Below are positions 50,052-52,740 of a stretch of 64,000 nucleotides of DNA, piece after piece. A program made the translations under genes and the position numbers. Source of the stretch: Dyella dinghuensis (lineage in GTDB: Bacteria > Pseudomonadota > Gammaproteobacteria > Xanthomonadales > Rhodanobacteraceae); contig NZ_RYZR01000001.1 in the NCBI RefSeq assembly GCF_003977615.1, forward strand, positions 124,001-188,000. The letters run 5' to 3'. Position 1 is the first letter of the stretch; each line of letters starts with the position of its first letter. The notes below the pieces were generated by a model. It worked only from the letters and a program-made list of their open reading frames with translations. It was not told the DNA's origin and did no database searches.

Positions 50052-50855
50052 TCAGTTGCCGTTGTTATTGTTGTTTCCGTTGTTGCCCTGTGGATTCGGA
50101 CGAGGCGCAGGCCGTGTGTTCTGCGGGGGCCGGTTGTTATTGCCACCCTGCGGAGGCGGCCGATTGCCGCCACCACCCGGAGGCTGCGGCCGGTTGCCAC
50201 CACCTGGCGGTTGCGGGCGATTGCCGTTGCCCGGGGGCTGCGGCCGGTTGCCGCCACCTGGCGGTTGAGGGCGATTGCCGCCGCCCGGAGGCTGGGGGCG
50301 ATTGCCACCACCTGGCGGCTGTGGGCGGTTTCCACCCGGCGGTTGCGGCCGGTTTCCACCGCCCGGCGGTTGTGGGCGATTACCACCTGGCGGCGGCGGT
50401 CTGCCACCCGGCGGACGCACGGGCGGACGCGGTGGCCGCGGCGGCGGACGAATCGGAATCGGCCGCGAGTACCAGCGCTGCCGATCGCGATAGAACGGCC
50501 GGTTGGCGTAATAGTTTCCCCAGTAAGTGCCAATCACGAACGACACAATCGGAATGCCGATCTGCGCGCCGTAGTCGGCCACATACACAGGTTGACTGTT
50601 ATACATATATTGGATGTACGTTCCCGCCACCCATCCGCGATTCGGACCGACAATCACGTCGCACCACTGCCATCCCGCCGTGCAGCCTTGGATGGAAATA
50701 GGCGCACCCACGGGGATCACCTGGATGACGGGATATTGGGAATCCGGACCGGCACGCAGATTGACGTTGCCGGTGACATAACCGTCCGCGGCAAACGCCA
50801 TGGCAGGGAACAGCACTAACAGGGCGGTCACGAGCGACCATAGCGTTCGCTTCAT
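50052..50855 (-). CDS. Exported SH3-domain protein with Pro-Gly-rich repeats
   Basis: This 267-residue protein has a signal peptide ending near residue 23 (AMAFA), a bacterial SH3 domain (about residues 25-90; GNVNLRAGPDSQYPVIQVIPVGAPISIQGCT in part, with WQWCDV and GWVAGTY), then a low-complexity tail. The tail repeats a unit of the form GGGNRPQPP about ten times (about residues 140-245) and ends in an Asn/Gly tract. SH3b domains often bind cell-wall peptides. GGAGG lies about 9 bases before the ATG. The function is unknown; the repeat tail may be unstructured and could bind polysaccharide or protein. Confidence 0.75.
   Translation of the reverse strand: MKRTLWSLVTALLVLFPAMAFAADGYVTGNVNLRAGPDSQYPVIQVIPVGAPISIQGCTAGWQWCDVIVGPNRGWVAGTYIQYMYNSQPVYVADYGAQIGIPIVSFVIGTYWGNYYANRPFYRDRQRWYSRPIPIRPPPRPPRPPVRPPGGRPPPPGGNRPQPPGGGNRPQPPGGNRPQPPGGGNRPQPPGGGNRPQPPGGGNRPQPPGNGNRPQPPGGGNRPQPPGGGGNRPPPQGGNNNRPPQNTRPAPRPNPQGNNGNNNNNGN
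50115..50425 (-). repeat. In-gene repeat coding for GNRPQPPGG units
   Basis: About ten imperfect copies of an 21-27 base unit encode the Pro-Gly-rich tail of the SH3 protein. Copy number is likely to vary between strains. Confidence 0.8.
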
Positions 50856-50962: not shown

Positions 50963-51391
50963 TCAGTGCACTTCCATCAGCTCGATATCGAATATCAGCG
51001 CGCTGTTGGGCGGAATATCGCCGCCCGCGCCGCGGCGTCCGTAACCGAGACTGGAGGGAATGATCACCTCGCGCTTGCCGCCGACGCGCATACCCTTGAC
51101 CCCTTTATCCATGCCGGGCACGACCTGATCGGCGCCAATGGTAAAAGTCAGCGGATGCCCACTGTCGTATGAACTATCGAACTTCGCACCGTGGTGATCC
51201 GGGGCCTTCGCGTCGTAGAGCCAACCGGTGTAGTTGATCTCGACTTCCGAGTCATCGCGCGCTGTATCGCCCGTGCCTACTTTCTGGTCCGTAATCGTGA
51301 GCTTGGCGACGTCGTCGGCCTGCGCAGTACGCAGTCCGAAACCGCCTAGGACCAGAGTGGCCGCAACCAGAAAGACCAACCGACGAGCCAT
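50963..51391 (-). CDS. FKBP-type peptidyl-prolyl isomerase, exported
   Basis: This 142-residue protein has a signal peptide ending near residue 25 (RTAQA) and one FKBP domain. The active-site residues are present: NYTGWLYD near 55, FDSSYDSGHPLTFTIGADQVVPGMDKGVKGMRVGGKRE around 72-108 (blocks FDSS, VIPGMD-like VVPGMD, GGKRE), and GYGRRGAGGDIPPNSALIFDIELMEV at the end. It should speed proline isomerisation of exported proteins. The ATG at 51391 is preceded by GGGGG; the frame continues 6 bases upstream to a TTG. Its gene diverges from the aroG leader. Confidence 0.9.
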   Translation of the reverse strand: MARRLVFLVAATLVLGGFGLRTAQADDVAKLTITDQKVGTGDTARDDSEVEINYTGWLYDAKAPDHHGAKFDSSYDSGHPLTFTIGADQVVPGMDKGVKGMRVGGKREVIIPSSLGYGRRGAGGDIPPNSALIFDIELMEVH

Positions 51392-51456: not shown

Positions 51457-51485
51457 TTGGCTTCGGCACTGTGATGTGGTATCAC
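51457..51485 (+). promoter_or_regulatory. Promoter of the aroG leader transcript
   Basis: TTGGCT (51457-51462), a 17-base spacer and TATCAC (51480-51485), preceded by TGG so that the -10 is extended (TGn). Four of six positions match in each box. Transcription would begin at about 51492-51493, that is, on the leader peptide ATG. Confidence 0.5.
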
Positions 51486-51492
51486 TTACCCC

Positions 51493-51573
51493 ATGATCAT
51501 CGCCTCCCACCGCTATTACTTCTGGTTTTATGGCTATCCGAAGCCGGCGGCGGAGCATGGTGCGCGATCGTAA
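51493..51573 (+). CDS. Aromatic amino acid leader peptide of aroG
   Basis: This 26-codon frame encodes a peptide with the run RYYFWFYGY at residues 7-15: four Tyr, two Phe and one Trp in nine residues. It lies 91 bases before aroG and is followed by a terminator hairpin. Such runs are the hallmark of attenuation leader peptides (trpL, pheL type): when charged aromatic tRNAs are scarce the ribosome stalls on these codons and the terminator fails to form. No ribosome binding site precedes the ATG; a promoter placed to start on the ATG suggests leaderless translation. The frame is too short to be found by length alone. The call rests on codon content plus the following RNA structure. Confidence 0.75.
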   Translation: MIIASHRYYFWFYGYPKPAAEHGARS

Positions 51574-51630
51574 CTAACCAGATCACCCACTTTCCTCGAA
51601 AAAGCCGCCAGCCAACCTGGCGGCTTTTTT
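51504..51630 (+). promoter_or_regulatory. Transcription attenuator of aroG (protector, antiterminator, terminator)
   Basis: Three alternative pairings are visible. Protector: CTCC-CA-CCGC (51504-51513), just before the Tyr codons, pairs with GCGG-C-GGAG (51547-51555). Antiterminator: GGCGGC (51546-51551) pairs with GCCGCC (51604-51609), extendable by two more pairs after one mismatch. Terminator: 51599-51611 with 51617-51629. A ribosome stalled on the aromatic codons would cover the first strand of the protector, free the second to form the antiterminator and let transcription reach aroG; a ribosome that finishes would leave the terminator free. Confidence 0.7.
51599..51630 (+). terminator. 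Attenuator terminator upstream of aroG
   Basis: A 13-bp stem (AAAAAGCCGCCAG with CTGGCGGCTTTTT) around a CCAAC loop ends in a run of six T. It stands 33 bases before the aroG ATG and inside its own transcript, so it must be regulated rather than terminate an upstream gene; the preceding plus-strand coding unit is only the leader peptide. Confidence 0.85.
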
Positions 51631-51663
51631 GTTGGTCGCCGGTTACGTCCAAAGGAGTTTCCC

Positions 51664-52740
51664 ATGACCAGCCTCACCGACGATTTACGCATACGTGAAA
51701 TAAAAGAGCTCGCCAGTCCCGCCGATGTCATGCGGGATTGCCAGCCGCATCCCCTGGCGCTGAGCACAGTCGCTGCGTCGCGCAGCGCGTTGCATCGCAT
51801 TTTGAAGGGTGAAGACGATCGCCTCGCCGTCGTCATTGGTCCGTGCTCGATTCACGACACCGACGCCGCGATGGAATACGCCCGCCGTCTCGTCGCCGAG
51901 CGCGAGAGACACGCCGACGCATTGGAAATCGTCATGCGCGTGTACTTCGAAAAGCCGCGCACCACGGTGGGCTGGAAAGGTTTGATCAACGACCCGGATC
52001 TCGATGAGAGTTATCACATCGACAAAGGGCTGCATCTGGCGCGCCGGTTGCTGTGCGACATCAACGCGCTTGGTCTGCCGGCCGGTTGCGAATTTCTAGA
52101 TCTCATCACGCCGCAATACATCGCCGATCTCGTAGCGTGGGGCGCGATCGGTGCACGCACGACTGAGAGTCAATCGCACCGCGAACTGGCGTCAGGTTTG
52201 TCATGCCCCGTCGGTTTCAAGAACGGAACGGATGGCAATATCAAGATTGCGGTAGATGCTGTGCTTGCTGCCGCGCAACCGCATCATTTCATGGCCGTCA
52301 CCAAGAGCGGCCGCACCGCCATTGCCAGTACGCACGGCAATGAGGATTGCCACGTGATCCTGCGCGGCGGCAAATTGCCGAACTACGATGCCGCCAACGT
52401 TGCCGCTGCATGCAGCGCGTTGGCCAAGGCCGGCGTGGCGGAGCGCTTGATGATCGACGCCAGCCACGCCAACAGCGGCAAGCAACCGGACAACCAGCCG
52501 CGCGTCGTCGCCGACATTGCCGCGCAACTCGAAGCTGGCGATACGCGGATACAGGGCGTGATGGTGGAAAGCCACTTGGTCGCGGGACGGCAGGATCTCG
52601 TCCCGGGATGCGAACTCACGTACGGTCAGAGCATCACCGACGGCTGCATCGGCTGGGAAGCCTCGGTGCAGGTGCTGGATCGCTTGGCCGAGGCCGTGCG
52701 CCGCCGTCGTAAAAACCTTGCAGCGCAGGCAGCCGCCTGA
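51664..52740 (+). CDS. aroG: 3-deoxy-7-phosphoheptulonate (DAHP) synthase, class I
   Basis: This 358-residue enzyme joins phosphoenolpyruvate and erythrose 4-phosphate to DAHP, the first step of the shikimate pathway to Phe, Tyr and Trp. AroF/G/H-type motifs are complete: GPCSIHD near residue 58, KPRTTVGWKGLINDPDLD near 96, ARTTESQSHRELASGLSCPVGFKNGTDG around 166-192 and DASHANSGK near 264. The metal ligands Cys, His, Glu and Asp are in these blocks. AAAGGAG lies 6 bases before the ATG. Upstream stand an aromatic leader peptide and an attenuator, so this isozyme is probably controlled by supply of all three aromatic amino acids; which one inhibits the enzyme cannot be read with certainty. Confidence 0.96.
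   Translation: MTSLTDDLRIREIKELASPADVMRDCQPHPLALSTVAASRSALHRILKGEDDRLAVVIGPCSIHDTDAAMEYARRLVAERERHADALEIVMRVYFEKPRTTVGWKGLINDPDLDESYHIDKGLHLARRLLCDINALGLPAGCEFLDLITPQYIADLVAWGAIGARTTESQSHRELASGLSCPVGFKNGTDGNIKIAVDAVLAAAQPHHFMAVTKSGRTAIASTHGNEDCHVILRGGKLPNYDAANVAAACSALAKAGVAERLMIDASHANSGKQPDNQPRVVADIAAQLEAGDTRIQGVMVESHLVAGRQDLVPGCELTYGQSITDGCIGWEASVQVLDRLAEAVRRRRKNLAAQAAA

Follow-up and report, generated by a model that had tools for sequence, protein, structure and literature searches.

A predicted ribosome-mediated attenuator with mixed aromatic codons upstream of the DAHP synthase gene aroG in Xanthomonadales and other proteobacteria

3-Deoxy-7-phosphoheptulonate (DAHP) synthase catalyzes the first step of aromatic amino acid synthesis and is the point at which the pathway is controlled. 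The textbook mode of transcriptional control of its genes in Escherichia coli is repression by TyrR and TrpR. The E. coli attenuators pheL-pheA, pheM-pheST, and trpL-trpE each have a leader peptide with regulatory codons and follow the logic of protector, antiterminator, and terminator. In the E. coli thr and ilv leaders, a single peptide combines codons for more than one end product of a branched pathway. Neshat et al. are said to have described in 2014 that the aroR leader transcript of Corynebacterium glutamicum is leaderless. According to the accessible portions of the respective papers, the C. glutamicum aroR leader precedes aroF and constitutes a ribosome-mediated attenuator with the residues Phe-Tyr-Phe (PMC11802643, PMC4046766), and this aroF leader responds to Phe, not to Tyr (PMC11802643). 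Elsewhere, the uORFC-13-1 motif before aroF of Acholeplasma is presented as a candidate uORF attenuator with at least one Phe residue and a ribosome-binding site (PMC8632094), and attenuators are predicted before aroA(Y)-tyrA in Vibrio (PMC1173090, Table 7) and before aroF/aroH in Shewanella (PMC2659441).

We analyzed a 64,000-nucleotide stretch, hereafter called the window, from the 4.2-Mb genome of Dyella dinghuensis (Rhodanobacteraceae), in which a leader ORF is followed by a 13-bp intrinsic terminator and then by aroG (Table 1). The first-pass annotation of the window had proposed a leader frame with the motif RYYFWFYGY and a set of pairings before aroG, and both were found in place, in the sequence (the motif at 51511–51537) and in its predicted folds. 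The evidence considered here consists of the anatomy of the locus, its conservation, the pairing computed for successive positions of the ribosome, and the constraint on both RNA arms beyond that imposed by the peptide. We are fairly confident that the element is a ribosome-mediated attenuator of aroG that would read charged tRNA-Tyr, tRNA-Phe, and tRNA-Trp together as an OR-gate. Expression of aroG is probably turned up when any of the three aromatic amino acids runs short. We infer that the leader is translated, that its start is leaderless, and that it responds to each amino acid, with read-through caused by each of uncharged tRNA-Tyr, tRNA-Phe, and tRNA-Trp. A gene for an FKBP-type peptidyl-prolyl isomerase (50963–51391, minus strand; PF00254) is divergent from the aroG leader. 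The minus strand at 50052–50855 encodes a protein with a long run of PPGGGNRPQ-like repeats and a weak SH3-type match.

Table 1 Features of the aroG leader region in the window
Feature	Position	Strand	Basis or detail
Predicted promoter	51457–51485	+	-35-like TTGGCT 51457–51462; extended -10 TGG-TATCAC 51477–51485, ending 7 nt before leader ATG
Leader peptide ORF, 26 codons + stop, MIIASHRYYFWFYGYPKPAAEHGARS, probably leaderless	51493–51573	+	Sequence (ATG at 51493, stop at 51571–51573); kept at 111/112 aroG loci
Regulatory codons Y Y F W F Y G Y	51514–51537	+	Conserved aromatic run; F, Y, W all in 110/111
Strand 1, protector 5′ arm, pairs with 51546–51555	51504–51514	+	Full-length fold; synonymous recoding 71/75
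Strand 2, common to protector and antiterminator	51543–51555	+	Folds; synonymous recoding 74/75
Strand 3, terminator 5′ arm; its 51604–51609 pair with 51546–51551 in antiterminator	51599–51611	+	Folds
Strand 4, intrinsic terminator 3′ arm, T-run 51625–51630	51617–51630	+	Sequence, fold energy, full-length fold
aroG, class I (AroFGH-type) DAHP synthase, regulated gene	51664–52740	+	TIGR00034, 514 bits vs cut-off 173

The terminator pairing proposed in the first-pass annotation, 51599–51611 with 51617–51629, is exact, with thirteen pairs and a loop at 51612–51616. The proposed antiterminator, 51546–51551 with 51604–51609, is reproduced as the predicted fold of the stretch that a ribosome at the Trp codon leaves free before the second terminator arm emerges; this fold has extra pairs between 51543–51544 and 51611–51612. 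The protector, originally placed at 51504–51513 with 51547–51555, appears in the full-length fold in a nearly identical register (51510–51514 with 51546–51550, and 51505–51507 with 51552–51554). The full-length fold is more stable than all 200 shuffled sequences (z -3.56), and the antiterminator stretch alone exceeds its shuffles in stability only weakly (z -1.65, with 13 of 200 shuffles as stable). The evidence on the protector is divided: the full-length fold and the recoding of its codons (71 of 75 loci, see below) favor it, whereas the truncated window transcript without a ribosome prefers the antiterminator form (z -0.62). A generic scan for sigma-70 promoters and terminators returned zero sites, probably because the T-run was counted into the stem. 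Matching GATC/GATC-like arms in several relatives suggested that the stop codon of the leader might lie in a conserved hairpin, but this was rejected as evidence. Although 91 of the 96 folds enclose the stop, the stretch is no more stable than shuffled sequence (mean z -0.02 for 96 distinct stretches).

Homologues of AroG were sought in 41 genomes of mixed kinship (23 matched), 147 genomes of the window's own family (73 matched, including a fragment of 56 residues), and 149 from a sister family (36 matched); the sets overlap. The sister family groups with Pseudoxanthomonas in the AroG tree. The upstream sequence was read at 112 distinct aroG loci, 76 from Rhodanobacteraceae and 36 from the sister family. 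A leader of 22–28 codons with an aromatic run is present together with a terminator at 111 of these loci, which are related orthologues and not independent events; when more than one start could apply, the ATG or GTG nearest to the run on its 5′ side was taken. The occurrence of leader plus terminator is beyond chance. In all 75 own-family and in 35 of 36 sister-family leaders, the first eight run codons include Phe, Tyr, and Trp; the lone exception (L108) has Gly where the others have Trp. The position of Trp in the run varies (positions 0, 1, 2, and 3 in 5, 6, 39, and 63 loci, respectively), and Phe and Tyr swap freely. Because Trp is retained despite its shifting position while Phe and Tyr interchange, it is kept as Trp. 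The terminator stretch has a mean fold energy of -19.8 kcal/mol (range -24.8 to -12.3, 111 loci). The first-pass annotation had expected the aromatic codons and the stems to be conserved upstream of aroG in relatives, and they are, with leader and terminator at all but one of the 112 loci and the full set of F, Y, and W in all but one of the 111 leaders. The sole locus without a leader (L036, G157:C14) contains unrelated DNA in place of the leader and terminator, and only the tail before aroG is left. It is a natural leader-minus allele.

The two families were compared with aroFGH loci of other gammaproteobacteria by a shared measure, the highest count of F, Y, and W in eight residues of any upstream ORF of 8–45 codons. 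The count is five or more at 110 of 112 two-family loci vs 3 of 69 control loci, and exactly four at 5 of the 69. The controls are loci, not genomes, and were the 30 best-scoring and 39 hand-picked among the matches listed, with L176 left out; some genomes contributed two or three of them. Of the three control loci with five or more, one from another gammaproteobacterial family (L175, G419) contains the leader MQSRNFFAFYFWFSVPGGREARL and by eye shares promoter spacing, strand 2, and type of terminator with the two-family loci. In another of the three, L191 (G451), the aroFGH gene is preceded by a Tyr-rich ORF, MRPTYFSYYRYYRYTYFM, with no evident terminator, which is possibly a different, Tyr-sensing leader.

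RNAalifold applied to an alignment of 107 sequences retained the terminator alone (9 pairs), and the protector by eye shifts register between clades. Because of this shift, column-wise covariation was replaced by ribosome-position and recoding tests. The transcript up to the terminator loop was folded with the ribosome at each codon, and the energy of sequestration of strand 3 was computed for the 111 loci. Mean sequestration is 9.4–12.4 kcal/mol when the ribosome A site is at run codons 0 to +7, 6.3 at +8, 3.1 at +9, and about 2 beyond, and 3.6 without a ribosome. In the model, the antitermination window falls on the aromatic run, and also takes in the codons just upstream of it (Arg, Ala, Ser). 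Antitermination is predicted for the ribosome at 100 of 117 Trp, 324 of 341 Tyr, and 231 of 244 Phe codons. The stalled mean exceeds the value without a ribosome in 110 of 111 loci. The corresponding values in the window are 10.7 at Y514, 10.1 at F520, 7.6 at W523, 10.4 at Y535, and 0.9 at K541, and 4.7 without a ribosome. Three of the 111 loci (L107, L061, L111) gain little or no sequestration on stalling, three more (L018, L057, L106) gain only about 3 kcal/mol, and in L050 and L044 sequestration is already high in the absence of a ribosome (9.8 and 10.6).

For the recoding tests, twelve random synonymous versions were generated for each of the 75 own-family loci, using the codon usage of nine own-family aroG genes. 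Recoding of the codons 3′ of the run, scored with the ribosome at the fourth run codon, reduced sequestration from 9.39 to 4.32 (n = 75). The real sequestration is above the mean of the recoded versions in 74 of the 75 loci and above their 90th percentile in 66. Recoding of the codons 5′ of the run, scored without a ribosome, raised the value from 2.69 to 5.29 (n = 75). Here, the real value is below the mean in 71 loci and below the 10th percentile in 50, the loci in both tests being related and so not independent trials. Since synonymous recoding of either arm weakens the switch, both arms are shaped at the RNA level, and the pairings put forward in the first-pass annotation are favored in the window's own family beyond the needs of the peptide.

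An extended -10 element of the form TGnTA, with the end of the hexamer 2–14 nt before the start codon, is present in 111 of 111 relatives. Its distance from the start codon is 6–10 nt in all but one of them, in which it is 2 nt, vs one of 329 control stretches. The predicted -35 hexamer of the window matches TTGACA at four of six positions. No leader among the 111 is preceded by a Shine-Dalgarno sequence, defined as four contiguous bases of AGGAGG at -18 to -4, in contrast to 95 of 111 aroG starts; among control stretches the figure is 38 of 332. When the measure is extended to 43 nt, the counts are 6 of 111 leaders and 95 of 111 aroG starts. Because the Shine-Dalgarno sequence is missing and the extended -10 element is only 6–10 nt upstream, the leader is probably leaderless and translated from a 5′-terminal AUG. 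A precedent for such a start is rnTrpL of Sinorhizobium meliloti, which begins at the trpL ATG according to the available text of PMC7298713. The regulatory codons of the leaders also differ from those of aroG genes in the same 63 genomes. TTT accounts for 122 of 153 Phe codons in the leaders (80%) vs 22 of 320 in aroG (7%), and TAT for 100 of 202 Tyr codons (50%) vs 69 of 329 (21%), at a similar GC3 of the other codons (0.82 in the leader and 0.85 in aroG). Codons ending in U may heighten the sensitivity of the stall or keep the loop unstructured.

The following mechanism of aroG control is proposed. Transcription would start at or beside the leader ATG, and a ribosome would load on the 5′ AUG. 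If any one of the three charged tRNAs were short, the ribosome would pause within the regulatory codons, where it would cover strand 1 and free strand 2. The pairing of strand 2 with strand 3 would then block the terminator, and aroG would be transcribed. If all three charged tRNAs were plentiful, the ribosome would run on, and strand 2 would be masked or would re-pair with strand 1. Strand 3 would then pair with strand 4, and transcription would end before aroG. The net effect would be an OR-gate at the entry to the shikimate pathway. The idea of a mixed aromatic attenuator gating aroG, put forward in the first-pass annotation, is supported by the conservation of the element, the retained residues, and the recoding tests.

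The first-pass annotation had looked to related Xanthomonadales genomes for conservation. The leader is indeed present there, but this setting is too narrow, since similar leaders precede aroG in Beta- and Alphaproteobacteria. A covariance model built from 107 leaders matched 92 of 299 genomes of the order, once in each, at E up to 1e-6. Two matches from a third family precede aroG and belong to the leaders ...SFYWYYFPSPRAVEG and ...TYFYWYYFPSPRAVEG. The match in genome G203 spans model positions 90–137 only, and the 2.8 kb examined there contains no aroG homologue. Two weak full-length matches in the window genome (G000:C1:58270-58392, E 7.6e-6, and G000:C11:352133-352257, E 1.8e-4) may be similar terminators only. 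Many of the weak matches in that genome, of which the best has E 7.6e-6, extend over just the model's terminator end.

An upstream ORF with at least four F, Y, or W in eight residues was found for 69 of 80 AroG relatives from named genomes among the matches listed; one of the 69 (L279) is distant and has no T-run, and one of the misses (L229) has only 48 nt of upstream sequence. Typical leaders are MKFASPAFYFYFYGFLKPLAEEGTRSI in Achromobacter and Bordetella and MIHLSASYWYFYFSSSLAAGGFRAI in Rhodopseudomonas. The terminator core GCCGCCAG...CTGGCGGC is found again in, among others, L206, L230, L244, L264, and L277. Folding with a stalled ribosome gave a profile of the same shape as in the two families for 33 betaproteobacterial and 11 alphaproteobacterial loci; these 44 of the 80 were chosen for having a leader, and the grouping by class is our own, the titles of L253 and L259 giving no class.

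In a tree of 70 AroG proteins, the presence of the leader requires 5 changes, vs a mean of 17.6 in shuffles. The 50 rows with a leader are 38 of 48 named rows called by an automatic criterion, which in L252 and L260 caught an ORF other than the aromatic one, and 12 two-family rows entered as such; the 10 rows of other gammaproteobacteria were entered as without a leader. All leader rows are on one side of a supported branch (99/96) that comprises 61 rows, and nine of the ten other-gammaproteobacterial rows are on the opposite side. The tree is rooted at the midpoint. Its rows come from top matches, so it is no census. The pattern fits an old cassette with a few losses. On balance, we favor the view that the leaderless three-input OR-gate is a cassette of one aroG clade that extends through Gamma-, Beta-, and Alphaproteobacteria, with inputs retuned by lineage, so that the Xanthomonadales families and alphaproteobacteria keep Trp and most betaproteobacterial leaders lack it.

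The Trp input is the least certain part of the proposed gate and the main uncertainty, because a leader usually contains a single Trp codon. The first eight run codons include about one Trp codon, vs 2.0–2.6 for Phe and 2.9–3.2 for Tyr. It is conceivable, although we regard it as unlikely, that the attenuator is real but answers only Phe and/or Tyr, the Trp codon being a passenger or too weak to hold up enough ribosomes. Such a device would be in line with the 33 betaproteobacterial leaders, 30 of which have no Trp in their densest eight residues (FY 30, FWY 2, FW 1), and with the C. glutamicum aroF leader, in which FYF answers Phe and not Tyr in the available part of PMC11802643. However, Trp is kept in 110 of 111 two-family leaders even though it moves position, it is present in 10 of 11 alphaproteobacterial leaders (FWY 10, FY 1), and most Trp codons (100 of 117) are themselves predicted sites of antitermination. 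These observations argue for Trp as a third input.

Control in trans is far less probable. The terminated leader transcript or peptide would then act like peTrpL and rnTrpL of Sinorhizobium, control in cis would be minor, and the conservation of the C-terminal half of the peptide would reflect this function. Both families conserve that half, as P-x-P-x-AEEG-x-RS or a similar sequence, and a leaderless trp leader with trans-acting products is known from the accessible portion of PMC7298713. However, strand 2 lies within the C-terminal codons, whose choice is under constraint at the level of the RNA, so base-pairing can explain much of the conservation. The element also stays with aroG: the covariance model matched once in each of 92 of the 299 genomes. 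It is hardly credible that the leader is a chance ORF that happens to precede an ordinary upstream terminator and plays no part in regulation. The 5 of 69 control loci with exactly four aromatic residues might speak for such an ORF, but it is already contradicted by the conservation (110 of 112 vs 3 of 69), the recoding tests, and the near-fixed distance of the promoter element in 110 of 111 relatives.

The three-input attenuator would act on one of at least two DAHP synthases. The possibility that AroG is the sole such enzyme, so that one leader senses everything, proved wrong. All 18 Xanthomonadales and all 5 alphaproteobacterial genomes of the panel encode a class II DAHP synthase (TIGR01358), vs none of the 10 betaproteobacterial ones. 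Two class I enzymes are encoded in seven of eight Alcaligenaceae genomes and one in each of ten Xanthomonadales genomes. None of 20 stretches before class II genes contains a comparable leader (best 4 of 8), and the best scores are mostly inside apparent ends of membrane protein genes. Since the class II enzyme is present and its gene has no comparable leader, AroG is the sensor-bearing one of at least two DAHP synthases. In a genome of the window's genus (G003), there is no AroG match, and two full-length and two partial class II matches were found. The absence of E. coli-type repressors, which was also considered, is unsupported for TrpR. A TrpR-family protein (PF01371) was matched in 12 of 12 genomes, so extra repression at the promoter is possible. 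The TyrR HTH_50 match is below the cut-off in the window genome and above it in 2 of the 12.

A conserved RNA element seems to do the job of repressors in many proteobacteria, from the pooled supply of three products. It offers a natural system for studying how one ribosome-stall sensor weighs several amino acids, and a practical handle for aromatic overproduction. It also allows one to ask what makes a lineage keep or lose Trp and how a leaderless ORF is used for attenuation.

Searches of catalogues and literature bear on how far the element has been described. At gathering scores, Rfam has zero matches in the whole window and zero in ten aroG loci from other groups, and the best score at 51566–51633 of the window is 24.2 bits, vs a gathering score of 55 for Phe_leader. 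Pfam and NCBIfam returned zero families for four leader peptides at E up to 10, which is a weak test for such short queries. No report of a mixed aromatic aroG leader was found in the accessible portions of the open-access literature. The main text of PMC2965389 does not mention aroG, and the element is undescribed in the available parts of PMC1262725, PMC1273637, and PMC3937554.

The mechanism class is already known, namely ribosome-mediated attenuation as in the trp, phe, thr, and ilv leaders. The E. coli pheL-pheA, pheM-pheST, and trpL-trpE attenuators (Rfam Phe_leader and Trp_leader) mainly sense one amino acid and control different genes. The E. coli thr and ilv leaders combine amino acids, but these are Thr/Ile or Ile/Val/Leu, vs the aromatic set here. 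As far as the accessible portions of the cited papers describe them, the other systems are related to the present one as follows. The C. glutamicum aroR leader shares a ribosome-mediated attenuator with aromatic codons before a DAHP synthase gene, but it is actinobacterial, is without Trp, and responds to Phe but not to Tyr. The Acholeplasma uORFC-13-1 motif is likewise a candidate DAHP synthase attenuator with Phe codons; it differs in belonging to another phylum and in its ribosome-binding site, and the available text describes no mixed aromatic run (PMC8632094). The Vibrio and Shewanella predictions share RNA control of gammaproteobacterial DAHP synthase genes, but come from other lineages, and no mixed Tyr/Phe/Trp leader is described in the accessible parts of these sources. 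The trpL of S. meliloti shares a leader ORF at the 5′ end of the transcript (PMC7298713), but senses Trp only and controls trpE(G). So far as our searches go, the new aspects of the aroG element are the combination of amino acids that it would sense, the lineage in which it occurs and how widely, and the likely leaderless start in this group.
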